IMG/VR virus record: IMGVR_UViG_3300025280_004535
Span: 1-31,980 of that record
Length of the DNA: 31,980 bases
Source of the DNA: a virus
Reading direction: 5' to 3' (one strand)
Below are positions 559-17,161 of the stretch, one piece after another. Position numbers and translations under genes: made by a program. Numbering within the stretch: position 1 is the first letter of the stretch; the number at the start of each line of letters is the position of its first letter. The notes beneath the pieces are model-generated. The model did not search any database. It saw only the letters and a list, made by a program, of their open reading frames with translations, and was not told the DNA's origin.

Positions 559-715
559 AAAGGGAGCCGGAAAAGCTCAAACCGGCGGCAATTCTGTAGA
601 CTATTATTCAAATTTATTGTCCACAGAAACAAAAAGATTGCTTGATGAATATGTGCTTGAAAACTATCCCAAATTAACTGAAAAATATCTACAAAGGTAC
701 CAAGAGGCAAAATAA
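515..715 (+). CDS. C-terminal fragment of the same sulfotransferase, +1 frame
   Basis: This frame encodes NYRKGAG followed by a helix-rich end (LLDEYVLENYPKLTEKYLQRY) that resembles the C-terminus of sulfotransferases and the end of the paralog at 13626-14543 (YSKYLERYAEK). The only start in this frame is a GTG at 515, inside the upstream frame and without a clear ribosome site. An independent gene is therefore unlikely. Removing one A from the ACAAAAC run near 549-554 would join the two frames into a continuous protein of about 237 visible residues. The product is best read as the tail of a frameshifted gene, either a real pseudogene or a sequencing/assembly indel. Confidence 0.5.
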   Translation: MTIHKNTHISLQNYRKGAGKAQTGGNSVDYYSNLLSTETKRLLDEYVLENYPKLTEKYLQRYQEAK

Positions 716-717
716 AC

Positions 718-2067
718 ATGTCTGATAAATTAACACAAATTATTGATTTAGTTGAAGAATATATCAACGAGAAAGAGAAAAATGAAACATGGACTCCGGG
801 CGAAGATTGGGTATCTTATTCTGGTCCTATGTACGATAAAGATGAATACATGGCAGCAGTAGAAGTGCTGCTCGGCGGCTGGTTGATTTTTGGGAAACAT
901 TCTAGAGATTTTGAACTTGAGTTTCCAAAACATTTGGGCAAAATGCACGGAAGCCTAACTAATTCGGGCAGTTCCGCCAATCTTTTGATGGTTGCTGCAA
1001 CCAAATCTAGACGATTTCCCAAAAAGTTGAACGACGGTGATAAAATCATAACTCCAGTTGTTTGTTTCCCCACCACGATTAATCCAATTATCCAATCTGG
1101 ATTACAGCCAGTCTTTGTAGACGTTGAAATGCCAAGTCTAAATCTAGACTTAGATAAAGTAGAAGCCGCATTAGAGGCAGATCCGTCAATTAAGGGTATT
1201 ATATTTGCGCATGTATTAGGAAACCCTCCTGATATGGATCGATTAATGCAATTAGTGGAAAAATACGATCTTGTTTTTATGGAAGATTGCTGCGATGCTT
1301 TAGGTTCAACATACGATGGAAGAAAGCTTGGTTCATATGGTATTATGTCAACCTGTTCTTTCTTTCCCGCGCACCACATGACCACAGGAGAAGGCGGATT
1401 TATTGCAACTAATAGCCAAATGATACGCACAATTCTGGCAAGCACAAGAGATTGGGGTCGTGCATGTTATTGTAACACCATGAAACCGGGCTCGGTACTA
1501 GCCGGAACGGCATGTGGTGATAGATTTAAAAATTGGCTCCCCGGTCAGCCCGATGCAATTTATGATCATCGATACGTTTTTGATGAGATCGGATACAATT
1601 TAAAGCCACTAGATTTACAAGCAGCAATGGGCTTACAACAGCTTCAAAAATTGCCCCAACTAGACGAGGCTCGTAGAGCAAATTGGAGCCGTCTGAGGGC
1701 GATTTTCGAGCCGTATGGGCAATACTTTTACTTGCCCGAGGCAACCAAAAAGGCAGATCCATGCTGGTTTGCATTTTTGCTCACAATTAAGGAAGACGCG
1801 CCATTTAATCGAAATGATATTGTATCGCATTTGGAAAATGCTAAAATTCAAACACGATCATATTTCTCTGGCAATATCCTGGCACACCCAGGATATAATC
1901 ATCTAGCAGCGGATTATGACGACATGGGCAAGGCATTTCCAAATGCCAATTTGGTTACGACAAATTCGTTCTTTTTGGGAACCTTTGCGGGTTTAACTCC
2001 AGATAAAATGGATTATATTCAACATACAGTTGATGATTTTTTTAAAAAAATAAGGAAGGTAAAATAA
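718..2067 (+). CDS. rfbH: RfbH/DdhC-type CDP-4-keto-6-deoxyglucose 3-dehydrase (E1) homolog
   Basis: DegT/DnrJ/EryC1-fold enzyme of 449 aa, the usual length for E1. E1 enzymes use PMP and a [2Fe-2S] cluster to remove the C3 hydroxyl of a CDP-4-keto-6-deoxyhexose, a step toward 3,6-dideoxysugars of surface polysaccharides. The diagnostic swap is visible: the PLP lysine of ordinary aminotransferases is replaced by histidine in FPAHHMTTGEGG (H220). Cluster-type cysteines are present at C192, C250, C252 and C266; the last gap is longer than the C-x-C-x7-C I recall for the Yersinia enzyme. ATG at 718 follows a GAGG-like site. The stop overlaps the next start by one base. The usual E3 reductase partner is not in the window. 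The family is sure; the exact sugar is inferred. Confidence 0.87.
   Translation: MSDKLTQIIDLVEEYINEKEKNETWTPGEDWVSYSGPMYDKDEYMAAVEVLLGGWLIFGKHSRDFELEFPKHLGKMHGSLTNSGSSANLLMVAATKSRRFPKKLNDGDKIITPVVCFPTTINPIIQSGLQPVFVDVEMPSLNLDLDKVEAALEADPSIKGIIFAHVLGNPPDMDRLMQLVEKYDLVFMEDCCDALGSTYDGRKLGSYGIMSTCSFFPAHHMTTGEGGFIATNSQMIRTILASTRDWGRACYCNTMKPGSVLAGTACGDRFKNWLPGQPDAIYDHRYVFDEIGYNLKPLDLQAAMGLQQLQKLPQLDEARRANWSRLRAIFEPYGQYFYLPEATKKADPCWFAFLLTIKEDAPFNRNDIVSHLENAKIQTRSYFSGNILAHPGYNHLAADYDDMGKAFPNANLVTTNSFFLGTFAGLTPDKMDYIQHTVDDFFKKIRKVK
1874..1896 (+). repeat. 9-bp perfect inverted repeat within the rfbH-like gene
   Basis: ATATCCTGG (1874-1882) and CCAGGATAT (1888-1896) pair perfectly around a 5-base loop CACAC. 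It is coding sequence and no U-run follows, so it is not a terminator. It may be chance. Confidence 0.5.
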
Positions 2068-3026
2068 TGAGACAGATAAAAATTGTTTATGTTACAGGAT
2101 GTTTAGGGTTTATAGGAGCGTACATAACCAGAAATTGTCTTGCAAGGGGGTGGATGGTCTATGGCATAGATAAAGTATCATATGCATCCAACCCTCGACT
2201 ATTGGAAGAGTTTAGGCAATATCCGAACTTTCACTTTGAACGTGCTGATATTTGCCAACTAGTACATTTATATGATTGTGATTATGTAATAAATTGTGCG
2301 GCAGAATCTCATGTTGGCAACAGCATAGTTAATAGCGATAAGTTTGTTAATAGTAATATAGTAGGGGTAAAAAACTTACTAGATTTGATTCGTTCAAAAC
2401 AAGTCAATTGTAATGAACGTCCGATGTTGTTTCACCTAAGCACAGATGAAGTATATGGCGATGTAAAGAAAGGCGTGCACAAAGAAACAAGTGTTTTGAA
2501 GCCAAGCAACCCTTATTCAGCAGCCAAAGCAGCGGCAGATATGTTAATTCATGCATGGGGTAGAACCTATGGTATTGAATACATAATTCTTAGACCTACT
2601 AACAATTATGGAATTGGTCAATACCCGGAAAAATTAATTCCGCTAAGCGTTAAAAATCTAAGACGCGGCAAGAAAATAAGACTTCATGATCAGGGCAAGC
2701 CATCTAGAAACTGGCTACATGTAGAAGATACCGCAGAAGCGGTTATGGCGATACTTGATGCAGATGTGCGAAATGAAATATTTAATGTTTCTGGAGGCTT
2801 CGAACAAACAAACATTGATACAGTTAAAAAAGTAATTTCCGCTTTCCACAGCCCAGACGAAGACTGGACCAACCATGTAGATTTATCATACGATAGAGAA
2901 GGACAAGATGTAAGATATGCTATTGATGACTCTAAGCTTAGAAAACTAGGATGGGAGCCAGAAAAAGACTTTAATGAAGAAATATATGATATCGTAACAC
3001 ATCATAAAGAAAATTTTAGGTGGTAA
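2067..3026 (+). CDS. NAD-dependent sugar-nucleotide 4,6-dehydratase, RmlB-like (extended SDR)
   Basis: 319-aa extended short-chain dehydrogenase. The Rossmann motif GCLGFIG sits at residues 11-17, AAESHV at 78-83, the Asp-Glu catalytic pair in STDEVYG at 125-131, and the Tyr/Lys pair YSAAK at 150-154. TDE plus AAESHV is typical of dTDP-glucose 4,6-dehydratase, which forms 4-keto-6-deoxy sugars. It is somewhat shorter than standard RmlB, and the sugar and nucleotide are not fixed by the sequence. ATG at 2067 overlaps the rfbH-like stop (TAATG), implying translational coupling. The two enzymes could act in series, since the E1 substrate is a 4-keto-6-deoxyhexose; that would require a CDP-glucose substrate here. 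The family is certain; the substrate is not. Confidence 0.83.
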   Translation: MRQIKIVYVTGCLGFIGAYITRNCLARGWMVYGIDKVSYASNPRLLEEFRQYPNFHFERADICQLVHLYDCDYVINCAAESHVGNSIVNSDKFVNSNIVGVKNLLDLIRSKQVNCNERPMLFHLSTDEVYGDVKKGVHKETSVLKPSNPYSAAKAAADMLIHAWGRTYGIEYIILRPTNNYGIGQYPEKLIPLSVKNLRRGKKIRLHDQGKPSRNWLHVEDTAEAVMAILDADVRNEIFNVSGGFEQTNIDTVKKVISAFHSPDEDWTNHVDLSYDREGQDVRYAIDDSKLRKLGWEPEKDFNEEIYDIVTHHKENFRW

Positions 3027-3030
3027 TTGA

Positions 3031-3909
3031 GTGAGCGACAAAACAACTATTAATCGATTTGATGTAACAGCTTTATATGACAGCTTTGTTGAATCAGCTA
3101 TGGCGTGCCCCGCCCCGGAAGGACCATGGCGCAAGCCAAAGCTTGTAGAATACGTAAGAAACCAGGAAGAATGGGATGGTATTACATATTTTACAGATAA
3201 GTTGTTGCATTTGGCTCCCCAAGTTGAATCAAAATATAAAATTGCAATTCTGATGGAACCGCCAGAATTATTGCCACAAATATATAATATTGTACAACAC
3301 TTTGAAGAACATTATGATTTAATATTTACATATGCAACAGAGCTTGTCGAGCTAAATCCAGAAAAATATATATTTTATCCCGCAGACATGGCTGCGATTG
3401 AAGAAGAAAATTGTAAGATGCACGATAAAACTAAGTTAATATCGATGATTTATTCCAATAAAACAGAATTACCGGGACACCAACTTAGACACATTATTGC
3501 TGATCGGTTTATACCAGTAATAGAATACGATAAAATAGATTTGTATGGCACAGGCACAGACAATCCAATCAAAAATAAATCCGAAGGATGTATTGATTAT
3601 ATGTTTCAAATAGCAATTGAAAACACCAGTCGTAAAAGTTATTTTGCAGACAAGCTTTTAGATTGCTTTATTACAGGGTGCATACCTATTTATTGGGGAT
3701 GTCCCAACATAGATGAATTTTTTGATATACGAGGAATTCTCACGTTTAACAGTTTTGACGAATTAAAAGAAATATTAGAAAACTTAAGCGAGGCACAATA
3801 TTTCTCCATGCTAGAATATGCACAAAACAACTTTAACGTAGCAAATGAAAACTACACCTGTCCAGATGATTATATCTATCAAGAAGTTGTTAAAAGATTA
3901 AATATATGA
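3031..3909 (+). CDS. Glycosyltransferase family 10 (fucosyltransferase)-like protein
   Basis: 292 aa, GTG start at 3031 four bases after the previous stop. The C-terminal half (about 135-235) has the GT10 donor-site pattern: ISMIYSNKT, the IDLYGTG strand, IENT, then a SYFADKLLDCFITGCIPIYW-type segment followed by GCPNI at 203-227. In GT10 enzymes this part binds GDP-fucose; here it fits with Gmd and Fcl encoded later in the same cassette. No signal peptide or membrane segment is seen, so it would act in the cytoplasm on a lipid-linked or soluble acceptor. The N-terminal 60 residues match nothing I recognise. The stop overlaps the next ATG (ATGA). Family call is fairly confident; donor and linkage are inferred. 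Confidence 0.7.
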   Translation: MSDKTTINRFDVTALYDSFVESAMACPAPEGPWRKPKLVEYVRNQEEWDGITYFTDKLLHLAPQVESKYKIAILMEPPELLPQIYNIVQHFEEHYDLIFTYATELVELNPEKYIFYPADMAAIEEENCKMHDKTKLISMIYSNKTELPGHQLRHIIADRFIPVIEYDKIDLYGTGTDNPIKNKSEGCIDYMFQIAIENTSRKSYFADKLLDCFITGCIPIYWGCPNIDEFFDIRGILTFNSFDELKEILENLSEAQYFSMLEYAQNNFNVANENYTCPDDYIYQEVVKRLNI

Positions 3910-4619
3910 GCCATATTGTAATAAGAAATTATGATACAGAAAAATACAATTTTGCATATATGCTGCAAAATTTATATAATGTGAAAAACTTGAATCAAGT
4001 TCATATTCTTGATCCTGAATTGTGTGCTGGAGAATGGGCAGCAGTTCGATTTGACAATGAAGTTAAAACATATTTTCATCAAGTTTTCTATGGCAAGTTA
4101 CGAGAACCTTGGAAAGAGTTTGTAGATGCATATAACAGTTTTGTAGAAAATGAAATTGCTCCCCTGTTCGATGAAGATTTCGTATATCAAACAACACCAT
4201 CATTCCGAGTCCAGGTGCCAAACAATAAAGCAGTTTCATTATGGCATTGTGATAGCGATGAAAGGCACTTGCACCCTCTAGGGGAAATTAATTTTATTGT
4301 TCCAATGACAAAGGCATTTGACACTAATGCCACATGGGCAGAATCTGCACCCGGAAAAAAAGATTTTAAACCAATGGAAATGGAATATGGACAGTTTGCA
4401 CAATTTAATGGAAATCAATGCTTGCATGGAAATAAAATAAATCAAACTGGTATCAGCAGGGTTAGCTTTGATTTTAGGATTATGCCAATGAGCAAATACA
4501 CTCCAGAATTGTGGAATTTAGACGAACGAGCCAACTCAAGATCGGCGGCTGGTACCACTCCAACAAAATTTTTAATTGGTGATTATTATTCACTATACAA
4601 GAAGGTTCAACATGTATGA
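3906..4619 (+). CDS. Putative 2-oxoglutarate/Fe(II) oxygenase, StrG-like
   Basis: 237 aa. A facial-triad pattern can be read: H114-x-D116 in LWHCDSD, H174 in CLHGN, and an arginine in SRVSFDFR (R185 or R191) that could bind 2-oxoglutarate. The layout recalls StrG-like proteins of streptomycin gene clusters and related phytanoyl-CoA-dioxygenase-like folds. Such an enzyme would hydroxylate or otherwise oxidise a sugar or sugar-linked intermediate, though StrG's own role is not well defined. ATG at 3906 overlaps the upstream stop by four bases. It sits between a glycosyltransferase and an aminotransferase, which suits sugar tailoring. The fold is a moderately strong inference from the motif spacing; the substrate is unknown. 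Confidence 0.6.
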   Translation: MSHIVIRNYDTEKYNFAYMLQNLYNVKNLNQVHILDPELCAGEWAAVRFDNEVKTYFHQVFYGKLREPWKEFVDAYNSFVENEIAPLFDEDFVYQTTPSFRVQVPNNKAVSLWHCDSDERHLHPLGEINFIVPMTKAFDTNATWAESAPGKKDFKPMEMEYGQFAQFNGNQCLHGNKINQTGISRVSFDFRIMPMSKYTPELWNLDERANSRSAAGTTPTKFLIGDYYSLYKKVQHV

Positions 4620-5298
4620 GTCGCTAGAAAAAGTAACAAAATTGCTAGAAAATCAGGGATATGAAATCAACGATCCTTGGGATGTTGTAGATGCTTTTGA
4701 GAAAAAAGTCGCAGAGTATGCGGGTAGCAAATATGCAGTTTCGCTAGATAATTGCACAAACGCTTTATTCTTATGTTTAAAATACCTCAATGCCCATGGA
4801 TGGCTCCGCACGGGGCACACTATCACCATACCGTCCAGAACTTATCTTTCTGTTCCAGGAACGATTATTAATGCTGGTTGCGATGTAAAGTTTGAAGATA
4901 TTGAGTGGGATGGCTTATATCAATTAAAGCCATATACTATTTATGACAGCGCAACAAGATTTAGAAAAGGTATGTATGTTAAAGACTCATTTCAATGTTT
5001 GTCTTTTCATATGAAAAAGATCTTGCCTATTGGAAAAGGCGGCATGATTTTAACCAATAGTAAAAAGGCATATGATTGGTTTAAAGTGGCAAGATATGAA
5101 GGGCGTCATATAGAATTGACTTATGAGGATGATAGTTTTGATATGATTGGGTGGAATATGTATATGCCGCCAGAACAAGCCGCAAGGGGCATTATGCTTT
5201 TTGAGGAATGTGCAGAACAGAACGGCGACTGCGGCGGGTCTTGGAGATATAGAGATATATCACAGTTGGATATTTTTAAAAGGGCGGAAAATGAGTAA
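4612..5298 (+). CDS. Short DegT/DnrJ/EryC1/StrS aminotransferase-like protein
   Basis: 228 aa from ATG 4612, chosen because AAGAAGG lies six bases upstream; an upstream TTG at 4576 has no such site. The PLP residues of the DegT family are present: an Asp in YDSA (D112) and the Schiff-base Lys in SFHMKK (K136), then GKGG. Family members usually have about 370-400 residues, so the C-terminal small domain is missing or much reduced here. It could still be a sugar aminotransferase feeding an amino-sugar, or a non-aminating relative. The start overlaps the oxygenase stop, and its own stop overlaps the next start (ATGAGTAA). There is no sign of a frame break: the downstream frame is a different gene. 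Confidence 0.7.
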   Translation: MYESLEKVTKLLENQGYEINDPWDVVDAFEKKVAEYAGSKYAVSLDNCTNALFLCLKYLNAHGWLRTGHTITIPSRTYLSVPGTIINAGCDVKFEDIEWDGLYQLKPYTIYDSATRFRKGMYVKDSFQCLSFHMKKILPIGKGGMILTNSKKAYDWFKVARYEGRHIELTYEDDSFDMIGWNMYMPPEQAARGIMLFEECAEQNGDCGGSWRYRDISQLDIFKRAENE

Positions 5299-7228
5299 AA
5301 AAAACATATATTTATTTGAAATTAATGATATTATTGCAAACCAAATTAAACTCCCATACAGTACTGGTCTTATTTGGTCTTATTGCTTGCAAGACCAAAC
5401 AATAACAGACAATTACAATCTAGATGGATGGTTTTATTACAGGCAAGAAGTAGATGACATTCTATCACAAATAAACAATCCACATATTATTGGATTTAAT
5501 TGTTTTGTTTGGAATTATGAATATAATAAACAAATTGCAGAACTGATCAAGAAGAAATATCCAAACTGTATAATTGTGTTTGGAGGATGGCAAGTTCCCA
5601 TAGCAGATAGAAACCAGGGATTTTTTGTAGACTATCCATATGTCGATATTATTGTCCACGGAGAAGGCGAAATTGCATTTAATGATGTCTTGCTTGAGGC
5701 GCTTAAAGACGAGCCAGATTGGAAATCTATTACAGGATGTTCGATACCTAATGACGATTTAACAACATTTGTTACGCCATCAAGACCCCGTATAGATGAT
5801 ATCGATAAAATGCCGTCCCCCTATTTAAATGGATTGTTCGATGAGCTAGTGGCTAAATGTGATCATGATTATGTATTAGAAACCACTATTGAAACTACAA
5901 GAGGGTGTCCATATGCTTGCACTTTTTGTGAAATTGGAACCAAATATTATAATAAAATAAAAAGGCAATCCTATGAAAAGGTAAAAAAAGAAATTGATTG
6001 GATATCCGATAATAAAGTTGAATTTATTTATAACGCAGATTCGAATTTTGGTTTATTCCCAGAGCATTTGGATGTTACAAAATATATGGTACAGAAAAAG
6101 AAAGAAACAGGATATCCGGCTAAACATCGATGCGATTGGGCGAAAAACAAAGCAGATAAAATTATTCCGTTAGCCAAGATATTTACAGAAGCGGGCATGG
6201 ATAAAGGTATTACAATAGCCTTGCAATCTATGAATCCCAACGTGCTTAAAGCGGTTAAAAGGCAAAATGTAGATAATGGAAAGCTTGAGAAGTTTTTCGA
6301 GATGTATAACGATGAAGAATTAACAAGTTATGTAGAATTAATACTAGGCTTACCAGAAGAAACGTTAGACAGCTTTATGGATGGTGTATGTAAAACAATG
6401 GAACTTGGACAACACAATTACATTGGCATATACTCATTAACAGCATTGCCAAATACTCCGTTTGGAGATCCAGAGTATATTAAACAATATGGCTTGAATG
6501 TTATCAACACATACACGGCTTTTAACCATTATGACATAACGGAAGAAAATGATTTTGAGCGCGAAGATATGATTGCTGGCAGTAATACGATGACATATAA
6601 TGAATATAAAAGAGCACATATTTTTAGATGGGTGGTGATGTTTGGACATTATCTTGGGACAGTTCAATATATCTCAAGATTTTTGCACAATGTGAAAGGC
6701 ATTTCTTATAGAGAGTTTTATGAAGGTTTACTGGAGTACATGTATGACAATCCAGATAGCTTTGTGGGGAAAGAGTTGCAGAAAACAGTTAATAGCTTAG
6801 AGGCAGTCTTGGCAGTGGAACAACCATGGGGCAGAATATTGCCAGATGTAAGGCAAAACTTTGCTTGGGATTTCGAAGAAGCAACTGCAATTAGGGTTTC
6901 TCAAAACAAACAAGAATTTTATGACAATATTAGAGACTTCCTCTCGTCTGCATTTGACATAGAATTGAATTCTGCCATAGACGAATTGTTTGAATATCAA
7001 GTATTGGCACTAATAGATCCTACACGCGAATATCCAGTTAGAAGCGAATTTCAATATAACATTCATGATGTAATTACAAGAAAAAGTCAATTAAAAGAAG
7101 CGCACAGCAAGTTGAATTTTGTTGCTGATAATTATGATGGAGATTATTATCGCTGGGGAATAGAGAAGCTATGGTGGGGCAGACGAGTCGCAGCATGCAA
7201 AACAAAAGTAGAACGTGTCAACATATAA
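5291..7228 (+). CDS. B12-binding-domain radical SAM protein
   Basis: 645 aa from ATG 5291 (GGGCGG upstream; overlap with the aminotransferase stop). A longer frame starting at 5147 is rejected because it runs inside the previous gene. The N-terminal part (about 60-140) is a Rossmann-like B12-binding domain with VFGGWQVP and VHGEGE; no DxHxxG base-off motif is seen. The radical SAM cluster motif CPYACTFC gives C206, C210 and C213, followed by a TIM-barrel-like region up to about 450. The last 200 residues are unassigned. Relatives include C-, P- and S-methylases and other radical rearrangement enzymes. Within this cassette, modification of a sugar or aglycone is plausible, but the reaction cannot be told. 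Confidence 0.82.
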   Translation: MSKKNIYLFEINDIIANQIKLPYSTGLIWSYCLQDQTITDNYNLDGWFYYRQEVDDILSQINNPHIIGFNCFVWNYEYNKQIAELIKKKYPNCIIVFGGWQVPIADRNQGFFVDYPYVDIIVHGEGEIAFNDVLLEALKDEPDWKSITGCSIPNDDLTTFVTPSRPRIDDIDKMPSPYLNGLFDELVAKCDHDYVLETTIETTRGCPYACTFCEIGTKYYNKIKRQSYEKVKKEIDWISDNKVEFIYNADSNFGLFPEHLDVTKYMVQKKKETGYPAKHRCDWAKNKADKIIPLAKIFTEAGMDKGITIALQSMNPNVLKAVKRQNVDNGKLEKFFEMYNDEELTSYVELILGLPEETLDSFMDGVCKTMELGQHNYIGIYSLTALPNTPFGDPEYIKQYGLNVINTYTAFNHYDITEENDFEREDMIAGSNTMTYNEYKRAHIFRWVVMFGHYLGTVQYISRFLHNVKGISYREFYEGLLEYMYDNPDSFVGKELQKTVNSLEAVLAVEQPWGRILPDVRQNFAWDFEEATAIRVSQNKQEFYDNIRDFLSSAFDIELNSAIDELFEYQVLALIDPTREYPVRSEFQYNIHDVITRKSQLKEAHSKLNFVADNYDGDYYRWGIEKLWWGRRVAACKTKVERVNI

Positions 7229-7231
7229 ATT

Positions 7232-7681
7232 ATGTCAGATAAATGGACTTGGAAAACAGCACATCAGTCCCCAGGTGCGGGAATTATTATTGTTAAACAA
7301 ATATCAAATGAATGGAAAATATTAGGAATGTGGTGCCGAGGAGGATACGATATTCCCAAAGGACATACAGAAGAAAACGAATCTGCTTTAGAAACCGCAA
7401 TACGAGAATGTCGAGAAGAAGTCAATATTACAAATTTAAAGTTTACATGGGGTATAAAAAAAATAATATTAAACAAATTAACGGTCTACATTGCCGAAAC
7501 AGAGGAACCGGCAGAAATTGTTCCCAATGATAAAACCGGAATTTATGAACATGAATTTTTCCATTGGTTAGATTGGAATACAATGTACAAAAGCACATAT
7601 CATTATCTTAAGCCAGCAATTATTTGGGCTAAAGATTTGATTTATTTAGAGGATAAAAATAGTGAAATTACAAATACGTGA
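7232..7681 (+). CDS. Nudix hydrolase
   Basis: 149 aa. The Nudix box spans residues 44-66, with G44, E50, R58-E59 and E62-E63 in place; the usual late glycine is asparagine (N65). These enzymes hydrolyse nucleoside diphosphates linked to another moiety using Mg2+. In a nucleotide-sugar cassette it may act on NDP-sugars or on a damaged nucleotide, but phages also carry Nudix enzymes for general nucleotide pools. ATG at 7232 follows the previous stop by three bases. The 3' end overlaps the next gene by 20 bases. Confidence 0.85.
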   Translation: MSDKWTWKTAHQSPGAGIIIVKQISNEWKILGMWCRGGYDIPKGHTEENESALETAIRECREEVNITNLKFTWGIKKIILNKLTVYIAETEEPAEIVPNDKTGIYEHEFFHWLDWNTMYKSTYHYLKPAIIWAKDLIYLEDKNSEITNT

Positions 7682-8525
7682 TATACAAAATACTAAACAA
7701 GAAAAATCTGCAATAATCTGCGGACATGGACCCAGCTTGGGTCCAATTAAAGATAAAATTGAAAGCCTACAATCTCAAGGTAAGCTTGATCGATTTTCGC
7801 TAAACAATTGGTATGATTATTTTAATACTGTGCCAACTTATTGGATCATAAGTAATACAAATTTTAACATTTTTAACATGTTTCATCAAATGAACGAGTT
7901 TAATACGCCGATATTTTATTCTATTGACGGCGATCCTACTGAATACTCATTTATAGATGCTAATTTAAAATGTGATTATTTACCATATGATCAGAGACAC
8001 TTTAAGCAAAAAAACTGTAGGGATATTTTAGAATCATTCCGTAATCATTATCAAAAACATGAAAATTTTAATTTTATGGAATATGGCAATAATTCAGCAA
8101 TGTGGAAACCGCCAAGAACAGGTGGACCTTATGGGTGGGCTGGTTTTGATCCTTATCAAAGATGCTGCGGTAGAAAAATTACAGAGGAGGCAACAATTCA
8201 AGAGTGTTTACAAGAGTTGACCGGGCATAATGATCATTACAGCACGGCAGATACAGTTGCGTTCCACGCGGTAGCATTTGCTCTCTTAATGGGATACAAA
8301 ACAGTATATATTGCTGGCATGGACTTAGATTACAGCAAGGGATATGACAATCCAGAAATGCCTATCAACATTGATCATTTAAATATATGGCACAATTATA
8401 AAGAAAACACATTAAACGATATTCGAATATTAAGCGAAAGCGCCGATATGTTAAATTCTAAAATTGTGAATCTAACAATAGAGCCATGGTATGACGGATT
8501 TGAACGCGGGGCTTTGGAGTTGTGA
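7662..8525 (+). CDS. DUF115/GT42-like protein with nucleotide-binding GxGPSL motif, possible nonulosonate transferase
   Basis: 287 aa from a GTG at 7662 with GAGG about nine bases upstream. The N-terminal motif IICGHGPSLG (18-27) is the Rossmann-type loop found in DUF115/MptE-like proteins (including Maf flagellin glycosyltransferases) and in GT42 sialyltransferases such as CstII. A second conserved stretch, ALLMGYKTVYIAGMDLDYS (about 204-222), matches the CstII-style helix-strand before the active site. The next two genes encode NeuA and NeuB, so the simplest reading is a transferase that uses the CMP-nonulosonic acid they make. That role rests on context plus fold resemblance. The 3' end overlaps neuA by four bases. 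Confidence 0.55.
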   Translation: MKLQIRDIQNTKQEKSAIICGHGPSLGPIKDKIESLQSQGKLDRFSLNNWYDYFNTVPTYWIISNTNFNIFNMFHQMNEFNTPIFYSIDGDPTEYSFIDANLKCDYLPYDQRHFKQKNCRDILESFRNHYQKHENFNFMEYGNNSAMWKPPRTGGPYGWAGFDPYQRCCGRKITEEATIQECLQELTGHNDHYSTADTVAFHAVAFALLMGYKTVYIAGMDLDYSKGYDNPEMPINIDHLNIWHNYKENTLNDIRILSESADMLNSKIVNLTIEPWYDGFERGALEL

Positions 8526-9190
8526 GTGAAGGCAATCGTTTTAACCATTGTTGGTTTGTTATACCCGCTAGATCAAATTCTAAGGGATTACCATTAAAAA
8601 ATCAAAAATTGTTTAAATATACCATCAATACCATTCCAGACAAATTGCATAATAATATAATTGTGTCTACAGACGATTTGACGATATTAGAAAAATGTAA
8701 CAATATAGGATTAAACACAATAAAAAGAAGGGAAGAGTTATCTCAAGATCACGTTTCTATAAAGGATGTATTAATAGATGTTGTAAAACAAAAAAAAATA
8801 CTTGACGATGACGATATAATCATGTTATATTTAACATATCCTCAAAGAAATTTTGAAGATATTAAAAACGCCTACGAGTTTTATAAATCACAAAATGCTG
8901 ACAGCATGCTTTGTCGATTGCCGGTAAGAAGTAATCCATTTTTATGTTATTACGAACTCGACGGTCATAAGGGCAAAAAAATTATAGAACACAATTTATA
9001 TCGCAGACAAGACTATCCACCTTGCTTTGAAGCTTCACACTTTATTGCAATTACAAAGGCTCGCAAATTACTAGAATTGGACAGCAATTTATATTCAGAA
9101 AACACCGTTTTTTACCCTATAGATACAATAATTGATATAGACACATTAAACGATTACGTAAAATTTAAAAGTATTAAAAATGACAAATAG
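8522..9190 (+). CDS. neuA: CMP-nonulosonic acid cytidylyltransferase (NeuA-like)
   Basis: 222 aa, GTG start overlapping the upstream stop (GTGA). The nucleotide-binding signature IPARSNSKGLPLKN (14-27) matches the family's IPARxxSKxxxxKN, and VSTDD (48-52) is also typical. The enzyme joins CTP to a nonulosonic acid such as Neu5Ac, legionaminate or pseudaminate, giving the CMP-activated donor. Its length is normal for the catalytic domain alone. It lies directly upstream of, and overlaps by 11 bases, the NeuB-like gene. The exact sugar acid cannot be told from sequence. Confidence 0.83.
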   Translation: MSEGNRFNHCWFVIPARSNSKGLPLKNQKLFKYTINTIPDKLHNNIIVSTDDLTILEKCNNIGLNTIKRREELSQDHVSIKDVLIDVVKQKKILDDDDIIMLYLTYPQRNFEDIKNAYEFYKSQNADSMLCRLPVRSNPFLCYYELDGHKGKKIIEHNLYRRQDYPPCFEASHFIAITKARKLLELDSNLYSENTVFYPIDTIIDIDTLNDYVKFKSIKNDK

Positions 9191-10007
9191 AACTAAAATT
9201 ATCGCAGAAATTGGAATTAATCATAACGGCTCAGTTGAAACAGCCAAGCAGTTAATCGATGTGGCTAAAGTCGCAAGGTGCGACTATGTTAAATTCCAAA
9301 AAAGAACCCCGCAAATTTGTGTACCAGAGCATCAAAAAGATAAGCCAAGAGATACCCCATGGGGCGTCATGACATATCTGGAATACAAAGAAAAGATTGA
9401 ATTTAACAAGCAAGAATATGATGAAATATTTTCTTATTGTGAGCGCATAGGTATCGACTGTTTTGCATCCGTATGGGACGAACCATCAGTAGAATTCATG
9501 ACACAGTATACAAATGCCGCAAAGATACCATCAGCACTCATTACCAATCACAATTTATGCCTACAAACAAGAGAGCATAACGAACTTATGATTATTTCCA
9601 CTGGCATGAGCACGGAACAAGAAATAGAAGAGTGTGTAGATGTTTGCAACCCAGACGTTATAATGCATACAAATTCTTCCTATCCATCTAAAATAGATGA
9701 GCTAAATTTACATTATATTAATTGGCTTAAGCGCAAGTATTCTTGGGCGGAAATCGGATATAGTGGTCATGAATTTGGACTAGTCACTACATTTGCCACT
9801 GTTCCAATGGGAGCAACTTGGATAGAAAGACATATCACACTTGACAGAACAATGTGGGGAAGCGATCAAATGGCTTCTATTGAGCCACATGGTTTAATTA
9901 AACTTGTTAAAGGTGTCAGGGATATAGAAAAAGCTCTGGGTTCCACAGGTCCAAGAAAACTTTTAGGAAGCGAATTGGCGAAAAAACAATCATTGAGGGG
10001 AGCCTAG
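9180..10007 (+). CDS. neuB: NeuB-like nonulosonic acid synthase lacking the SAF domain
   Basis: 275 aa. The TIM-barrel synthase domain is clear: GINHNG (12-17), KFQKR (38-42), KIPS (115-118), STGM (140-143), GYSGHE (193-198) and ERHITLDRTMWGSDQ (216-230). It condenses phosphoenolpyruvate with an N-acylated hexosamine. Typical NeuB proteins have about 345 residues because of a C-terminal antifreeze-like (SAF) domain. This protein stops at KKQSLRGA, the linker just before that domain, and the following DNA encodes a different gene. In the known structures the SAF domain reaches over the partner's active site, so its absence matters for function. Synthase class is near certain. Confidence 0.88.
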   Translation: MTNRTKIIAEIGINHNGSVETAKQLIDVAKVARCDYVKFQKRTPQICVPEHQKDKPRDTPWGVMTYLEYKEKIEFNKQEYDEIFSYCERIGIDCFASVWDEPSVEFMTQYTNAAKIPSALITNHNLCLQTREHNELMIISTGMSTEQEIEECVDVCNPDVIMHTNSSYPSKIDELNLHYINWLKRKYSWAEIGYSGHEFGLVTTFATVPMGATWIERHITLDRTMWGSDQMASIEPHGLIKLVKGVRDIEKALGSTGPRKLLGSELAKKQSLRGA

Positions 10008-10009
10008 TA

Positions 10010-11086
10010 TTGGACAATTTATATCACATATCAGTTCATAAATGCGCCAGCCAATGGTATGAAGCATTATTAAAACATGAATTAGTGCAAAATTGTACAG
10101 ACTATGATGTCAAGCATTATGAAACAGATTTAAAAAATCCTCTTCTTTACATGCAAAATTATTTTACACACGCAGAAGTCGTTCCCGCAGCCCACGATTG
10201 GACCGCCCTTCCCGGACTACAGGATGCAATGACGCCATGGCGTAGCCGCCGTGGACCGGAAAGCAAATGGTGGAGAATCGATCCATCAGCACCAATCGAG
10301 CCACCACCAGAAAATTTATGTATATGTGGGCTATATACAAGTTATCAAAAATTTAAACACTTAGTTAACACGGATAATTTTAAAGGCTTTTACGCAATTC
10401 GTGATCCGAGGGAAATTTTGGTTTCCGCATATAAACATTTTACACTTAGAGAGCCAGCCCGACATGCCATATCGTTTTTTAGAAATTTCGTCTTAGCACA
10501 CCCAGAATGGGCATTAGTAATTGAGATATCAGATCAAGATTTTAAGATGGCAAAAAAAGATGATGGCGAGTACTCATACGATTACTGTGCTACTGAACAT
10601 ACCCCGCACGGAGTGATAGAGCATGTCAGGATGGGATTATATGGCGGCTTTGAAGGCTATATGGTCAATGATGATATTGAATGTGAAGAAGAGAGAAAAC
10701 AGGCTTGTTTGAGAAACATGATAGATATTTTAACTTTTAATCTTGGTTTATATCCATCGATGTATGATTGGGCAACAAAATGTAAAGATGATAGAATATT
10801 GATGATTAAGAATGAAGATTTTTTGATAGATTATAAAATTGAAAATTTTGAAATGCTTTTTGATCATCTAGAGATTAACATACCTAAAAACAACATAGCA
10901 CAAATATATGATGATATGAGGTTTGAAAAATTTTCAGAAGGACGTGCGCTAGGAGAACAAAATAACAATCACCATTACCGCAGCGGTACTTCTGATACTT
11001 GGAAAAAAGAATTAAACGACGAGACATTAGATTACTTTTATAAGAAAACGGGCGATCTAATAGACGTATTACAATATGACAGATAA
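10010..11086 (+). CDS. Sulfotransferase domain protein
   Basis: 358 aa from a TTG at 10010 preceded by GAGGGGAG. The PAPS-binding features are readable: 5'-PSB-like HKCASQW (10-16), a 3'-phosphate loop RDPREILVSAYKHF with R131 and S139, and the C-terminal RSGTSDTWK (324-332), which corresponds to the RKGxxGDWK motif of cytosolic sulfotransferases. No membrane anchor is seen. It transfers sulfate from PAPS to an acceptor; the cassette context suggests a glycan. It is not closely similar to the other two sulfotransferases here. A GC-richer patch is visible near 10190-10290. PAPS must come from host metabolism. Confidence 0.75.
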   Translation: MDNLYHISVHKCASQWYEALLKHELVQNCTDYDVKHYETDLKNPLLYMQNYFTHAEVVPAAHDWTALPGLQDAMTPWRSRRGPESKWWRIDPSAPIEPPPENLCICGLYTSYQKFKHLVNTDNFKGFYAIRDPREILVSAYKHFTLREPARHAISFFRNFVLAHPEWALVIEISDQDFKMAKKDDGEYSYDYCATEHTPHGVIEHVRMGLYGGFEGYMVNDDIECEEERKQACLRNMIDILTFNLGLYPSMYDWATKCKDDRILMIKNEDFLIDYKIENFEMLFDHLEINIPKNNIAQIYDDMRFEKFSEGRALGEQNNNHHYRSGTSDTWKKELNDETLDYFYKKTGDLIDVLQYDR

Positions 11087-11097
11087 GGATTATAATA

Positions 11098-11442
11098 ATG
11101 AACATATTTATTGATATTGACGACACAATTTGCAGAACACCAATTAATGGAGATTATGGTCAAGCCGAAGCGATACAAGATAGAGTAAATAAAGTTAATA
11201 GCTTATATGATGAGGGGCATGTAATTGTATTTTGGACTGCCAGGGGAAGTGGCACAGGAATTGATTGGACCGATATTACACAGCGACAATTAGAAGCCTG
11301 GGGAGTAAAATATCACCAATTGATGTTTGGTAAGCCCGTATTTGATGTTTTTATCGATGATAAATCGATTAATTCAGATATGTTTTTTGGCAATTTTGTA
11401 ACAAATGAAGAACAAACAGAACAGCCACAAGGTGAGGAATAA
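11098..11442 (+). CDS. Small HAD-superfamily phosphatase (polysaccharide-biosynthesis type)
   Basis: 114 aa. HAD motif I is FIDIDDT (D6, D8), motif II lies in FWTARGS (T47), and the conserved lysine plus acidic motif IV are seen in GKPVFDVFIDDKS (K79, D87, D88). Very short HAD proteins of this kind, with almost no cap, are common in capsule and LPS clusters, where they are thought to remove phosphate from a sugar phosphate. Here it could act on a nonulosonic acid 9-phosphate or another sugar-phosphate intermediate. An AAGGA-like site precedes ATG 11098. Confidence 0.75.
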   Translation: MNIFIDIDDTICRTPINGDYGQAEAIQDRVNKVNSLYDEGHVIVFWTARGSGTGIDWTDITQRQLEAWGVKYHQLMFGKPVFDVFIDDKSINSDMFFGNFVTNEEQTEQPQGEE

Positions 11443-11450
11443 AATATATT

Positions 11451-12737
11451 ATGCGTTTTTATAAAAATATAGAAGCCTGCAGAATTTGCGGTTCAAAAAA
11501 TCTAACTGAAGTAATACACATTGAAGATCAATATCTATCGCCCACATTTGTCCAAACAAATGTTAATAATCCTTTAGCCGATATTCGTGTACCACAAACA
11601 TTGGTATTGTGCGACAAAAGCGATAATAATGATGGCTGCGGCTTGTTACAACTTAAAGAAACAGTGGATCCTGATTTGTTATATCGTGAGTACTTTTACA
11701 GATCTGCTGTTAGCGATACTATGCGAAGGGATTTGCATGATGTTGTAGATGAAGTATTAAACAATACCCAAGTTACTGTACAGGATAATGATGTAGTATT
11801 GGATACCGGCGCAAATGACTGCACAATGCTCTCATATTTTCCAGAAACGCTAACACGAATTGGAGTGGAGCCAGCAAATAATATTGATTGGGGACACGTC
11901 CCAGATTCAATAAGCATTGTTAATGATTATTTTACATACGATGCTATTAAAGAAACTTTAGGCGATAAAAAGATTAAGATTTTAACTTCTTGTGCCATGT
12001 TTTATGACCTAGATGAGCCAAATAATTTTGTTGCAGATGTTAAAAAGACATTAGATCCGCAAGGTATGTGGTGTATACAGCTTAGCTATTTACCATCGAT
12101 GTTAAAAAATATTAATTTCTATGATATTTGCAATGAGCATTTAGAATATTATTCTTTGCAAACTTTGCACAATTTAATGGAAAGACATGGATTATCAATT
12201 TTTGATGCAACAACAAACCATGTTAATGGCGGAAGCGCTCGCGTGTTTATAACTCATAGCGAAAGAGAATTAGAAGAAACAGAGAGACTACAAGCATTAT
12301 ATAAAATGGAAGCTTCGTTAGATTTGAACAACGAGCAAACTTATTTTAATTTTAAAGCTAAAATTGACGAACTTAAAAACAAGATTAAAAGCACAATGTT
12401 ATCAGAAATTCAACAAGGAAAATTAGTATTAGGTCTTGGGGCATCTACCAAGGGCAACATGCTACTGCAACTTTTTGATATAGGCAAGGAGACAATTCCT
12501 TATATAAGCGAAAGAAACCCAGAAAAAGTGGGCTTAAAAACACTTGGCACAGATATTGAATTAATCTCCGAAGAAAGAGCAAGAGAGCTAAATCCAAGTT
12601 GCATGCTTGTTTTGCCATGGTATTTTAAAGATGAAATCGTTAAACGAGAAAAAGAATATTTAGAAAATGGCGGCAAGCTTTTGTTTCCCATGCCGTACCC
12701 ACACATAGTACATAAAGATGGAGAAACACAACTATGA
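11451..12737 (+). CDS. Sugar C-methyltransferase, NovU/TylC3-type
   Basis: 428 aa with the full three-part architecture of this family. An N-terminal zinc-binding part has C10, C13, C54 and C63. A SAM-dependent methyltransferase core has its glycine motif in VLDTGANDCTM (about 116-126). The C-terminal domain begins near the GASTKG motif (about 330-335). Family members C-methylate the C3 carbon of 4-keto-6-deoxy NDP-sugars or act on related cassette sugars. The substrate could be the product of the RmlB-like dehydratase or of the E1 homolog in this cassette. The 3' end overlaps the next ATG by four bases. Confidence 0.82.
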   Translation: MRFYKNIEACRICGSKNLTEVIHIEDQYLSPTFVQTNVNNPLADIRVPQTLVLCDKSDNNDGCGLLQLKETVDPDLLYREYFYRSAVSDTMRRDLHDVVDEVLNNTQVTVQDNDVVLDTGANDCTMLSYFPETLTRIGVEPANNIDWGHVPDSISIVNDYFTYDAIKETLGDKKIKILTSCAMFYDLDEPNNFVADVKKTLDPQGMWCIQLSYLPSMLKNINFYDICNEHLEYYSLQTLHNLMERHGLSIFDATTNHVNGGSARVFITHSERELEETERLQALYKMEASLDLNNEQTYFNFKAKIDELKNKIKSTMLSEIQQGKLVLGLGASTKGNMLLQLFDIGKETIPYISERNPEKVGLKTLGTDIELISEERARELNPSCMLVLPWYFKDEIVKREKEYLENGGKLLFPMPYPHIVHKDGETQL

Positions 12738-13633
12738 AAGTTCTGGTAACAGGCGGAACTGGCTTTGTGGGAAAACGTCTACAATCGATTAAACCAAATT
12801 GGATATATATATCTTCTAAGGATTACGATTTAGTAGCTACGGACGACTGCAAAAGAATGTATAATGACATACAACCAGATGCAGTTGTACATTTAGCGGG
12901 CAAGGTCGGAGGTATAAAGGCAAACGATATGAATCCAGCCGATTTTTATTACATTAACACGATGATTAACACTAATATCGTACATCAAGCTAAAGAATGC
13001 GGAATTAAGAGAGTATTATCTTCTTTAAGCACTTGTACATTTCCTGATGTCGTGCCAAGCTATCCATTAACAGAGCAAGATATTTTATGCGGACCCCCAG
13101 CCATTACCAATATGTCTTACGGTTATGCTAAGCGAAGTTTATATATTCAATCTAAAGCCTACCGTAAACAATATAATCTAGATTATTCTACATTTTGTCC
13201 ATCGAACCTATATGGACCAGAAGATAATTTTGATTATGATAGCTCGCATTTTGTCTCCGCACTGGTTCGTAGATTTTTCGAAGCTAAAAATGGCGATACA
13301 CTTGAATTTTGGGGCTCGGGAAATGCATTACGGCAGCAATTATTTGTTGATGATTTGGCTCATATCATCCCCATGTTGCTAGAAGAGCATCATAGCGATA
13401 TTCCAATAATTGTAGCACCAAACGAAAATTTGTCTATTTCTAATATGATTGATATTTTACGAAAATACATTAACAAAGATGTAAATATTAAATTTAATTC
13501 GCATCTAGATGGACAATACAGAAAAGACGGTAGTAACGGCAAGCTGCTAAATATGATTGGCAAATTTAACTTTACACCATTTAAAGATGGCATAAAAACT
13601 ACGTATAACTGGTATAGTGAACAAAATGGGTGA
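12734..13633 (+). CDS. fcl: GDP-L-fucose synthase (Fcl/WcaG)
   Basis: 299-aa epimerase-reductase of the SDR family. GGTGFVG (7-13) binds NADP. KVGGIKAN (57-64), S99/C101 in SSLSTCTFP, the Y129/K133 pair in SYGYAKR, NLYGPEDNFD (158-167) and H172 in SSHF match the catalytic set of GDP-fucose synthase. It turns GDP-4-keto-6-deoxy-D-mannose into GDP-L-fucose, using the product of Gmd, which is encoded one gene downstream. The two are separated by a sulfotransferase gene. Fucose made here would suit the GT10-like enzyme at 3031-3909. Confidence 0.9.
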   Translation: MKVLVTGGTGFVGKRLQSIKPNWIYISSKDYDLVATDDCKRMYNDIQPDAVVHLAGKVGGIKANDMNPADFYYINTMINTNIVHQAKECGIKRVLSSLSTCTFPDVVPSYPLTEQDILCGPPAITNMSYGYAKRSLYIQSKAYRKQYNLDYSTFCPSNLYGPEDNFDYDSSHFVSALVRRFFEAKNGDTLEFWGSGNALRQQLFVDDLAHIIPMLLEEHHSDIPIIVAPNENLSISNMIDILRKYINKDVNIKFNSHLDGQYRKDGSNGKLLNMIGKFNFTPFKDGIKTTYNWYSEQNG

Positions 13634-14543
13634 TATTGCCAACAGATACAAGCCGATATTTGGGGACAACCCCATGCGCATAAAGCCCCAAGATGAGCAA
13701 TTGGATGCTGAATGCTTATTGTTATCTTATCCTAAATCTGGAAATACATGGGCTAGATATATTGCAGAAACAATTTCAGACAGACCAACTATTGGATATG
13801 ATGTCAAATTACCTATACGACATGATTATCACAACTCATTAGATCATCCGATATATAGCAGAATTAATATATTTGGCGATCATTGGTCAAACAACGATGC
13901 TAGACAAAAATTTAATACATTTATCAACAACGAGAACATACTTTTAAAAAGACATACTTGGGATGACAAGGAGGCACATACTAAAAATGCCTATACAAAA
14001 TTAATCTTGATTGTTAGAAACTATAAAGAATGTCTTTTGCGAAATGATGTGCATATAGAAAGGTTATATTGTACGCAATGCACAGATGTAGATAAAGGAG
14101 AATTCTGCGATAGATCGCCTTTGCTTAAAACAGGGCATTCAAGATATTGCCATCATGCACACAAAGAAGTATATATATACCTTGACAATATAGAAAGATT
14201 TGATGAACATAAAGGTCCAAAATTATTAATTTACTATGAAAACTTGCTAATGAATCCAAAAGATGTTATATATAAACTAACAACATTTTTTAATTGGCAA
14301 ATGGAGAAAGCAGACAAGTTTGTTAGCGAATTACAACTCCATGAGCAAAGTAGCGTAAAACATTATATTTGGGGAGCAGAATCAGCCGTACAAAAAGATC
14401 CATATTGGCATTCAAGTAAGAAACTAAATGAGGATCCTACAATGTTGTATCAGGTCGATGTTGTTATGCGGCATAAAGCAGGTGCGTTATATAGCAAATA
14501 TTTAGAACGCTACGCGGAAAAAACTGGATTTGATTTAGACTGA
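13626..14543 (+). CDS. Sulfotransferase domain protein, paralog of the first gene
   Basis: 305 aa from ATG 13626; a GTG at 13617 is possible but no better supported. The canonical 5'-PSB motif SYPKSGNTW occurs near residues 35-43, the 3'-phosphate loop IVRNYKECL in the middle, and LLIYYENLLMN after it. The last two motifs are shared with the broken sulfotransferase at 1-715, including a 16-base exact match (14014-14029 and 236-251). It overlaps the fcl stop by eight bases and is wedged between the two GDP-fucose genes, suggesting a fucose-containing acceptor. It is probably PAPS-dependent and cytoplasmic. Confidence 0.78.
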   Translation: MGDIANRYKPIFGDNPMRIKPQDEQLDAECLLLSYPKSGNTWARYIAETISDRPTIGYDVKLPIRHDYHNSLDHPIYSRINIFGDHWSNNDARQKFNTFINNENILLKRHTWDDKEAHTKNAYTKLILIVRNYKECLLRNDVHIERLYCTQCTDVDKGEFCDRSPLLKTGHSRYCHHAHKEVYIYLDNIERFDEHKGPKLLIYYENLLMNPKDVIYKLTTFFNWQMEKADKFVSELQLHEQSSVKHYIWGAESAVQKDPYWHSSKKLNEDPTMLYQVDVVMRHKAGALYSKYLERYAEKTGFDLD

Positions 14544-14560
14544 CCGGAGGATGATATATT

Positions 14561-15535
14561 ATGAGTAAAACTGCATTAATTACAGGCGTAACAGGACAAG
14601 ATGGTTCATATTTAGCGGAAGAATTGCTAAAAAGAGGATATTTTGTTGTTGGGTTGAAAAGAAGAACATCAAGTATATCTACTGAAAGAGTAGATCACAT
14701 TTTTAATAATTCGAATTTTGAAATGAGATACTACAATCTACATGATGCAACCTGTATGTACAGACTTTTATCGGAATATGAGCCTGATGAGATTTATAAT
14801 CTAGGAGCACAATCTCACGTAAAAGTCTCTTCAGAGGTGCCAATAGAAACAATTGATACCATCGCTTTGGGTACAACAAAATTGCTTGAAGCCGTATTGT
14901 GGTGCTGCCCGGAAACCAGATTTTATCAAGCATCTTCATCGGAAATGTTTGGCGACAACCCCGAGAGCCCAAAAAATGAAAATACTGTATTTATGCCCGC
15001 TTCACCATATGCTTGTGCAAAGGTATGTGCACACCATCTTATAAGACATTATCGTGAAGGATATGGCATGCACGCGTCAAGTGGCATATTATTTAACCAT
15101 GAATCTCCACGCCGAGGCGAAACGTTTGTAACTAGAAAAATTACCAGAGCTGCTGCTAAAATTAAATTAGGTCTGCAAGATGAATTAAGCTTGGGTAATT
15201 TGTCCGCTCATCGAGATTGGGGATTTGCAGGGGATTACGTTGAAGCTATGTGGCTAATGATGCAACAAGATACGCCAGATGACTATGTTATTGCAACCGG
15301 CGAAACACATAGCGTAAAAGAGTTTTTGCAGACAGTGTTTGAACATGCAAAATTAGATTTAGATAAGCATGTAAAAATTGATCAACGATTATTTAGAAAA
15401 CACGAAGTGCCGCATCTATTAGGAGATGCGTCAAAAGCAAAAGAAAAGCTAGGCTGGGAACCAAGTGTTACCTTCAATGAACTAGCGATTATGATGTATG
15501 AATCAGATTTACAACAATTAACAAAGGAGTTATAA
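14561..15535 (+). CDS. gmd: GDP-mannose 4,6-dehydratase
   Basis: 324 aa. The NADP-binding loop is GVTGQDG (9-15), RRTSS (34-38) is the family's cofactor-phosphate segment, and NLGAQSHV (80-87), SSSEMFG (125-131), Y150/K154 in SPYACAK and [15 protein letters not shown] (179-193) are all Gmd signatures. It converts GDP-mannose to GDP-4-keto-6-deoxymannose, the substrate of Fcl. GGAGG lies upstream of ATG 14561. The length is slightly shorter than the usual about 345-370 aa. No GDP-mannose-forming enzyme is in the window, so the host or another region must supply it. This is the last glycan gene of the cassette. Confidence 0.93.
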
Positions 15536-15536: not shown

Positions 15537-15773
15537 ATGACTATAGAACATAATGTGAACTTAACAATAGACAAACTTAGCGATCAGGCATTAGGAGCGA
15601 TAATGATGGCATTACAAAAATCATTATTGGAGCAATCCGATATCGTCCCGGTGCTTAAAGGATTTGACTTTGTTCGCACCGATCAAGGACTTGTTGTGCG
15701 CAACCCCCCTATCGTTAGGGCGGCGCACAACAATACAGAAGATGCAGAAGAGCTAGATGAGGCAACTGAATAG
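15537..15773 (+). CDS. Small conserved-looking phage protein of unknown function
   Basis: 78 aa with AAGGAG before ATG 15537. The N-terminal part is predicted amphipathic (IDKLSDQALGAIMMALQKSL), a short strand pair with GLVVRNPP follows, and the tail is very acidic. I do not recognise a characterised family, although the look is that of small proteins in T4-like marine phages. Its stop overlaps the next start by one base, placing it with the zinc ribbon, membrane protein and late sigma factor rather than with the sugar genes. Confidence 0.65.
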   Translation: MTIEHNVNLTIDKLSDQALGAIMMALQKSLLEQSDIVPVLKGFDFVRTDQGLVVRNPPIVRAAHNNTEDAEELDEATE

Positions 15774-17115: not shown

Positions 17116-17161
17116 AAATTTTAGACATTTCTATTTATTAATATAACTGGGAGATGTTTAA

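Follow-up and report, generated by a model that had tools for sequence, protein, structure and literature searches.

Gene content of the window

We analyzed a 31,980-bp viral fragment from IMG/VR (record IMGVR_UViG_3300025280_004535, positions 1 to 31,980; hereafter the window), the left part of which carries a cassette of genes for glycan synthesis. Sixteen open reading frames (ORFs) at positions 718–15535 are all open and all on the plus strand; most of them overlap their neighbors or are separated from them by a few bases. Families were assigned with Pfam and NCBIfam profiles, scores being compared with family or equivalog cut-offs, and with phrog profiles for phage genes. The cassette, originally noticed as 16 intact, tightly packed genes of named enzyme families, is confirmed by the ORF list and by these profiles. 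Both intact sulfotransferases of the original prediction exceed the Pfam cut-off, and a third, broken one is added at the contig edge.

1–558, +: partial third sulfotransferase, cut by the contig edge (PF00685, 26.3 bits, cut-off 22)
718–2067, +: RfbH-like nucleoside diphosphate (NDP)-4-keto-6-deoxyhexose 3-dehydrase, 449 amino acids (aa) (NF011936 RfbH, 468 bits, above 423)
2067–3026, +: RmlB-type NDP-sugar 4,6-dehydratase (TIGR01181, 292 bits, below the RmlB equivalog cut-off of 365)
3031–3909, +: GT10 (fucosyltransferase-family) glycosyltransferase (PF00852, 35.3 bits, above 23.9; 50–56% identity in syntenic relatives)
3906–4619, +: 2-oxoglutarate (2OG)-Fe(II) oxygenase-like protein of the "sporadic carbohydrate cluster" type (best match TIGR04324, 43 bits, far below the cut-off of 150)
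4609–5298, +: short DegT/DnrJ-family pyridoxal phosphate (PLP) protein, ~229 aa (PF01041, 77.7 bits; alignment with conserved SFHxxK...GKGGM)
5288–7228, +: B12-binding radical S-adenosylmethionine (SAM) enzyme related to KedN5 C-methyltransferases (NF033712, 272 bits, below the cut-off of 700; CX3CX2C motif)
7232–7681, +: Nudix hydrolase (PF00293, 36.2 bits; Nudix box)
7662–8525, +: DUF115/MptE-like protein, GT42-fold candidate cytidine monophosphate (CMP)-nonulosonate transferase (PF01973; AlphaFold predicted local distance difference test score, pLDDT, 78)
8522–9190, +: NeuA/PseF-type CMP-nonulosonate cytidylyltransferase (PF02348 above cut-off; TIGR03584 61.9 bits, below cut-off; PDB matches to CMP-N-acetylneuraminate synthetases)
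9180–10007, +: NeuB-type nonulosonate synthase, catalytic barrel only, without C-terminal SAF domain (PF03102, 220.6 bits; PDB matches to pseudaminic acid synthase and the 290-aa NeuB 6ncs)
10010–11086, +: sulfotransferase 1 (PF00685, 33.7 bits, above 22)
11098–11442, +: short HAD phosphatase of the EcbF/BcbF capsule type (TIGR01689, weak; very common in relatives' islands)
11451–12737, +: sugar C-methyltransferase with a TylCIII-like domain set (PF08421, PF13489 and PF08484, Methyltransf_13/14 pair; adjoins Fcl and Gmd in relatives)
12734–13633, +: Fcl/GMER-like epimerase-reductase (NF047922, 201 bits, below the equivalog cut-off of 500)
13617–14543, +: sulfotransferase 2 (PF00685, 32.3 bits, above 22; YPKSGNTW motif)
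14561–15535, +: Gmd (TIGR01472, 438.8 bits, above the cut-off of 415)

To the right of 15535 follow, in order, a small ORF, FmdB, orf128, gp55, a hub-like protein, a 2257-aa protein, gp25 and gp6. The cassette had been described as lying right next to baseplate genes; phage genes do adjoin it, but the closest ones encode FmdB, orf128 and the gp55 late sigma factor, with the hub and baseplate genes beginning ~2 kb beyond.

15538–15773, +: small ORF at the right-hand edge of the variable region (relatives have a comparable small ORF ahead of FmdB)
15773–16045, +: FmdB-like zinc-ribbon protein, conserved right anchor (PF09723/phrog_1076; precedes gp55 in 56 of 57 loci)
16050–16436, +: orf128, conserved right anchor (present in 56 of 57 loci)
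16375–17115, +: gp55-like late sigma factor, conserved right anchor (phrog_234; at least 597 IMG/VR contigs)

These neighbors indicate that the DNA of the window is phage DNA, and the recurrence of the same gene order in independent contigs shows that the cassette is not a product of chance. The possibility that the left part might be host DNA or a chimeric join was checked against related contigs and set aside: by sequence comparison the left part is phage DNA, with connected, syntenic versions in related phages.

Position of the cassette in related phages

Relatives of the window NeuB (54–74% identity) occur in at least 80 viral contigs, many of which have several other cassette genes just upstream of gp55, and parts of the cassette lie upstream of FmdB, orf128 and gp55 in dozens of IMG/VR contigs. 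In one relative, L004, gene order matches that of the window for 13 of the 16 genes; those missing are the two sulfotransferases and the HAD gene. The concern that related phages might carry only unconnected fragments of these genes thus does not hold.

To the right, the borders were established from a set of gp55 contigs chosen irrespective of sugar genes, of which there are at least 597; 57 of these loci have >8 kb upstream of gp55. The regions upstream of FmdB and orf128 (hereafter islands) are rich in sugar genes, with content varying from phage to phage, and the commonest Pfam families among 145 randomly drawn island ORFs were epimerase/dehydratase, methyltransferase, glycosyltransferase and cytidylyltransferase. 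Clustered at 50% identity, the 646 island ORFs give 388 families. A pair of phages with 95% identical gp55 has no island family in common, and a pair with 97% identical gp55 has 22% in common, so the islands change more quickly than the core.

Among relatives with a full left side, the one that resembles the window most, G049, reads without interruption PhoH, orf205, nuclease, GT416, GT427, sulfotransferase, GT10, oxygenase, DegT, radical SAM, Nudix and DUF115, continuing with NeuA, NeuB, HAD, DegT type, C-methyltransferase, Fcl, Gmd, FmdB, orf128 and gp55. From this layout the window starts within the variable part, its left contig end falling inside the glycan locus. In a near-complete relative (G042) the island spans ~111.3–130.9 kb. 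We sampled 20 further stretches upstream of relatives' islands for the left border. A PD-(D/E)XK nuclease is present in 17 of them, preceded by orf205 and PhoH wherever the stretch reaches. The nuclease is followed by the glycosyltransferase (GT) GT416, of family GT4, in 17/17 cases (two with one ORF between), and by a second GT4 enzyme, GT427, in 16/17, the seventeenth being cut there. Over 16 loci, the mean identity of GT416 (60%) is close to that of gp55 (63%) and PhoH (62%), and GT416 is encoded in at least 501 viral contigs.

From these comparisons the locus is laid out as PhoH, orf205, PD-(D/E)XK nuclease, two conserved soluble GT4 enzymes, hypervariable sugar genes, and FmdB-orf128-gp55, and the window contains the right-hand ~15.5 kb of a glycosylation locus at a fixed site in a large clade of abundant, mostly uncultured T4-like marine phages. 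The cassette is not a fixed unit but the right end of a longer locus, which has two conserved GTs at its opposite end and most of whose sugar genes are swapped between close relatives.

By gp6, gp55 and capsid, the nearest cultured phages are Flavobacterium phage immuto and Microcystis phage Mel-JY01, whose hosts belong to different phyla. The order in immuto is nuclease, GT416, GT427 and sugar genes; in Mel-JY01 it is nuclease, GuaB, GT416, GT427 and GT/methyltransferase genes, with guaB between nuclease and GT416 and with GT416 split into two ORFs. The 484-kb uncultured phage LR756508 carries nuclease, GT416, NeuA, GT10, Fcl, Gmd, NeuB and HAD in neighboring stretches, and Rhodothermus phage RM378 has GT416 with a weak GT427-like neighbor. 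Membership of the Far-T4 (RM378) group was considered and rejected, as the capsid proteins of G042 and G039 match those of immuto, Mel-JY01 and LR756508, and not those of RM378, T4 or P-SSM2; the GT416 homologue of RM378 is real all the same.

Export genes and candidate promoters

No multispanning protein was found among the 646 island ORFs (none with >2 hydrophobic segments), although the same rule gives 5–9 segments for Wzx/Wzy/WcaJ and 6–8 for WbbH/WcaD of Escherichia coli. Likewise, in 17 further regions, none of the 192 ORFs that follow the nuclease has two or more such segments. The PF13440 flippase is absent from 21 relatives' records and present in 14/14 control genomes, and the PF02397 undecaprenyl-phosphate sugar-phosphate transferase is found in 0/21 records and 9/14 controls, the WecA family lying outside this test. 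A Wzx/Wzy-type O-antigen or capsule locus was accordingly rejected, since relatives have neither PF13440 nor PF02397 nor a multispanning polymerase.

The lack of a polymerase and flippase had been pointed out from the window, where it cannot be judged because the contig begins inside the locus; it does hold in relatives with a longer locus, which support the earlier suggestion that the product decorates something already existing. Without multispanning protein, PF13440 or PF02397, the glycan is probably built and used in the cytoplasm.

In relatives, covered by L172–L191 and the 57 gp55 loci, ACTATTTAT (variant ACTACTTA) precedes the genes of gp18-, gp22-, gp23- and gp19-like proteins and gp6, gp25 and orf95. 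Downstream of gp55, these motifs have 32 sites on the gene strand vs. 2 on the other, and ACTATTTAT stands before an island ORF only once. It marks late genes of the clade and looks like their promoter, in place of T4's TATAAATA. The latter, tried as a T4-type late promoter, shows no excess within the window.

17131–17138, +: CTATTTAT, candidate late promoter of the clade, before orf95 (motif comparison with relatives)

Predicted sugar branches

NeuB and NeuA would yield a CMP-nonulosonate, a sialic-acid-like sugar donor, which the GT42-like DUF115 protein may transfer. DUF115, NeuA and NeuB are kept together in relatives, and NeuB and NeuA co-occur significantly (P = 8e-5, 57 loci). NeuB without the SAF domain is uniform in length (272–281 aa) in the best-matching viral relatives, and the solved structure 6ncs is similar (290 aa). 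In a Foldseek search of the PDB with the DUF115 model, the top match was CstII, the GT42 sialyltransferase of Campylobacter jejuni (probability 1.00, E 2.5e-4), with a template-modeling (TM) score of 0.38–0.46 and identity of 14–16%. CstII is thus the best fold match of a protein that adjoins NeuA and NeuB; its TM score is below 0.5, and a sequence search of the PDB with the DUF115 protein gave no meaningful match. No enzyme for a six-carbon precursor (NeuC, PseB/C/G/H, LegB/C/G) reaches its equivalog cut-off within the window, whose locus is cut on the left. The HAD phosphatase was tried as a dedicated NeuB partner in a keto-deoxynononate (KDN)- or keto-deoxyoctonate (KDO)-like three-step route and dismissed for lack of association with NeuB (P = 0.23, 57 loci).

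Gmd and Fcl would produce guanosine diphosphate (GDP)-fucose or, with the C-methyltransferase, a 3-C-methyl-6-deoxy GDP-sugar. The C-methyltransferase had been grouped with RmlB, RfbH and DegT, but in relatives it is tied to Fcl and Gmd instead: the three stay together where there is no close RmlB/RfbH pair, which makes the GDP-sugar branch its more likely place. An Fcl-like gene accompanies Gmd in 18/18 cases of the 57-locus set. Because of this constant pairing, and because the C-methyltransferase adjoins both genes, a C-methylated GDP-deoxysugar of the virenose type appears as likely as plain GDP-fucose. The presence of GT10, which may transfer a fucose-type sugar, argues for fucose-type transfer. 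The predicted virenose pathway of Coxiella burnetii combines a GDP-mannose dehydratase, a C-3 methyltransferase and a GMER-type reductase (PMC3539893), and its likeness to the window lies in this enzyme combination only.

The two sulfotransferases, dependent on 3′-phosphoadenosine 5′-phosphosulfate (PAPS), may cap the glycan product. Adenosine 5′-phosphosulfate (APS) kinase, the maker of the sulfate donor PAPS, occurs in 4/50 relatives and not in the window; three of the four records fall among the seven relatives with a sulfotransferase match (P = 0.007), which suggests sulfation with its own donor supply. Some phage APS kinases are fused to an N-terminal hydrophobic domain (L135:6678–7436, L146:7366–8097 and G039:127874–128599) and lie in glycan islands or elsewhere in the genome. 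The sulfotransferase at the left edge is broken in frame near 541–556, its C-terminal part running on in another frame to ~714; this break (window 1–714) is either a sequencing error or a pseudogene.

RmlB and RfbH would together give a 3,6-dideoxy-4-keto sugar, and they adjoin conservedly in L004, L014, L088 and G042. In the window RfbH a His replaces the PLP lysine (HHMTTGEGG), with Cys192-X57-Cys250-X1-Cys252-X13-Cys266; the His-His and the cysteines are the dehydrase signature. The radical-SAM and 2OG enzymes may tailor the glycan product. The oxygenase and short DegT genes are adjacent in at least eight loci. The short DegT family (~205–230 aa), often paired with a 2OG oxygenase, keeps the PLP lysine region and has a much reduced C-terminal part. 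Beside RmlB/RfbH in the glycan island of G042 (124074–126796; L178) lie genes for ketopantoate-hydroxymethyltransferase-like and thiamine-diphosphate enzymes, which recalls yersiniose-type branched-sugar synthesis.

Of the remaining features, the hub-like protein (17446–19095) has, by eye, an apparent D-Ala-D-Ala-carboxypeptidase-like stretch and no profile match. An Rfam scan found no RNA family. One relative, L086, is a contig of the Flavobacteriales metagenome-assembled genome (MAG) SI039_bin50, with gp55 (75%) and DegT-type, C-methyltransferase, Fcl and Gmd genes upstream, a weak hint of a Bacteroidota host. Host inference from the radical-SAM gene was tried and abandoned, because 42 genomes belonging to the same order as the Flavobacteriales MAG with a relative's contig contain no close homologue.

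Possible functions of the locus

We propose that closely related phages may come to carry different glycan coats ("serotypes"): on a shared core glycan, the product of the two conserved GTs, the variable genes would place changing outer sugars. The predicted acceptor is a protein of the phage itself, most likely part of the virion, that would receive its glycan in the cytoplasm; we favor this over remodeling of the host envelope, with confidence that is about even. It is a more tentative suggestion that the locus as a whole is a phage "serotype locus", in which two ancient, vertically kept GTs are combined with mobile sugar and sulfation genes to give coats differing in nonulosonates, fucose and sulfate.

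If the host envelope is the target instead, variable sugars and sulfate would be added to the core of lipopolysaccharide (LPS) or lipooligosaccharide made at the cytoplasmic face; over the long infection of marine hosts that grow slowly, this would prevent superinfection or adsorption to debris. We consider this explanation less likely than not. In its favor, nonulosonate, fucose, dideoxysugars and sulfate all typically occur as surface decorations; against it, no flippase, PF02397 transferase, polymerase-like or other multispanning protein was found in the islands examined. Moreover, the two GTs are common to Flavobacterium and Microcystis phages despite their differing host surfaces, and the fact that the pair is retained although host surface chemistry is unrelated suggests an acceptor encoded by the phage itself. 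Several observations weigh against a virion acceptor. The first late-promoter-like sites come only after the island, whose position thus gives no sign of co-expression with virion genes and would suit early or middle expression. Soluble GTs could act on LPS core or lipid A at the cytoplasmic face, and the LPS genes of P-SSM2 (PMC2984593) and pelagimyophages (PMC7029224) have been read as acting on the host surface, by O-antigen modification. In addition, the GT pair lies outside the window contig and is inferred from relatives, only four of the seven relatives' sulfotransferase matches exceed the Pfam cut-off, and the co-occurrence P values ignore shared ancestry and the 10-kb view.

Two other explanations seem to us improbable. 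The sugars might modify phage DNA (glycosylated hydroxymethyl-pyrimidines) against restriction, given that the locus adjoins a nuclease gene upstream of gp55 and that T4-like phages glycosylate DNA with phage-encoded GTs (e.g., PMC6024577 and PMC13216743). A gene of the thymidylate-synthase fold (PF00303; deoxycytidine/deoxyuridine monophosphate hydroxymethylase family) was, however, found in 0/16 relatives (seven >180 kb) vs. 9/14 controls, which speaks against T4-style DNA glycosylation, 2OG-oxygenase routes to hydroxymethylated DNA not being covered by this comparison. Furthermore, sulfation and nonulosonates are not known to occur on DNA. Equally improbable is that the locus is transient cargo without selected function, serving headful packaging as "stuffer" DNA, a suggestion made earlier for cyanophage LPS clusters (PMC3037559). 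The hypervariable content and the frame-broken sulfotransferase would fit such cargo, but the window has 16 intact, overlapping genes, whose order is conserved with a relative at ~36–74% protein identity for most shared genes, functional partners co-occur, and the GT pair is fixed, its first member being as conserved as core genes.

The purpose of the sugar genes scattered through marine phage genomes is an open question, and a fixed two-GT locus present in >500 environmental contigs as well as in cultured phages makes it directly testable on a laboratory phage, immuto (Flavobacterium sp. LMO8). Should virions be the target, marine viruses would have in their glycan coats a major trait that varies rapidly; should it be the host surface, the locus would represent a widespread superinfection barrier.

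Comparison with known systems

The original prediction regarded phages as known to carry only single LPS genes. This does not stand, as P-SSM2 has 24 LPS genes in two clusters (PMC2984593) and pelagimyophages have LPS-type genes within a host-recognition island (PMC7029224); large sugar clusters are already known in T4-like phages (P-SSM2, S-SSM7, pelagimyophages). What appears new, as far as we have found, is a fixed locus with a conserved GT pair across a clade, together with its fast exchange, joint nonulosonate and sulfation branches, phage-borne APS kinase and lack of export machinery. In a limited literature search we found no paper tying such a locus to this clade.

Immuto and Mel-JY01 share with the window clade the sequence of nuclease, GT416/GT427 homologues and sugar genes, as well as homologous capsid, gp55 and gp6. 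They differ in having other sugar genes and in the distance of the locus from gp55 (~18 kb in immuto and 70 kb in Mel-JY01), whereas in the window clade it adjoins gp55. The LPS clusters of P-SSM2, S-SSM7 and S-SM2 (PMC3037559, PMC2984593) likewise come from T4-like marine phages and are large, uniting genes for sugar-nucleotide epimerases, glycosyltransferases, methyltransferases and 2OG oxygenases, and the Gmd of P-SSM2 is 55% identical to that of the window. The P-SSM2 clusters, however, lie near hli03 and/or phoH and not between nuclease and gp55; the cluster viewed has no annotated nonulosonate or sulfotransferase genes, and the P-SSM2 capsid protein is of the T4 type, without sequence similarity to the capsid of the window clade. 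The host-recognition cluster of pelagimyophages (PMC7029224), which are uncultured marine myophages, is also hypervariable and includes deoxysugar enzymes as well as glycosyltransferases, but it surrounds tail-fiber genes and GT8 is its main reported family, whereas the window clade has fixed nontail borders and two GT4 enzymes. Although we found no dedicated hypervariable sugar-nucleotide locus or sulfation reported for mycobacteriophages in PMC12619734, virion glycosylation is established there, and for the window clade we propose the same mode of action, in which capsid and tail proteins would be glycosylated by enzymes that the phage encodes.

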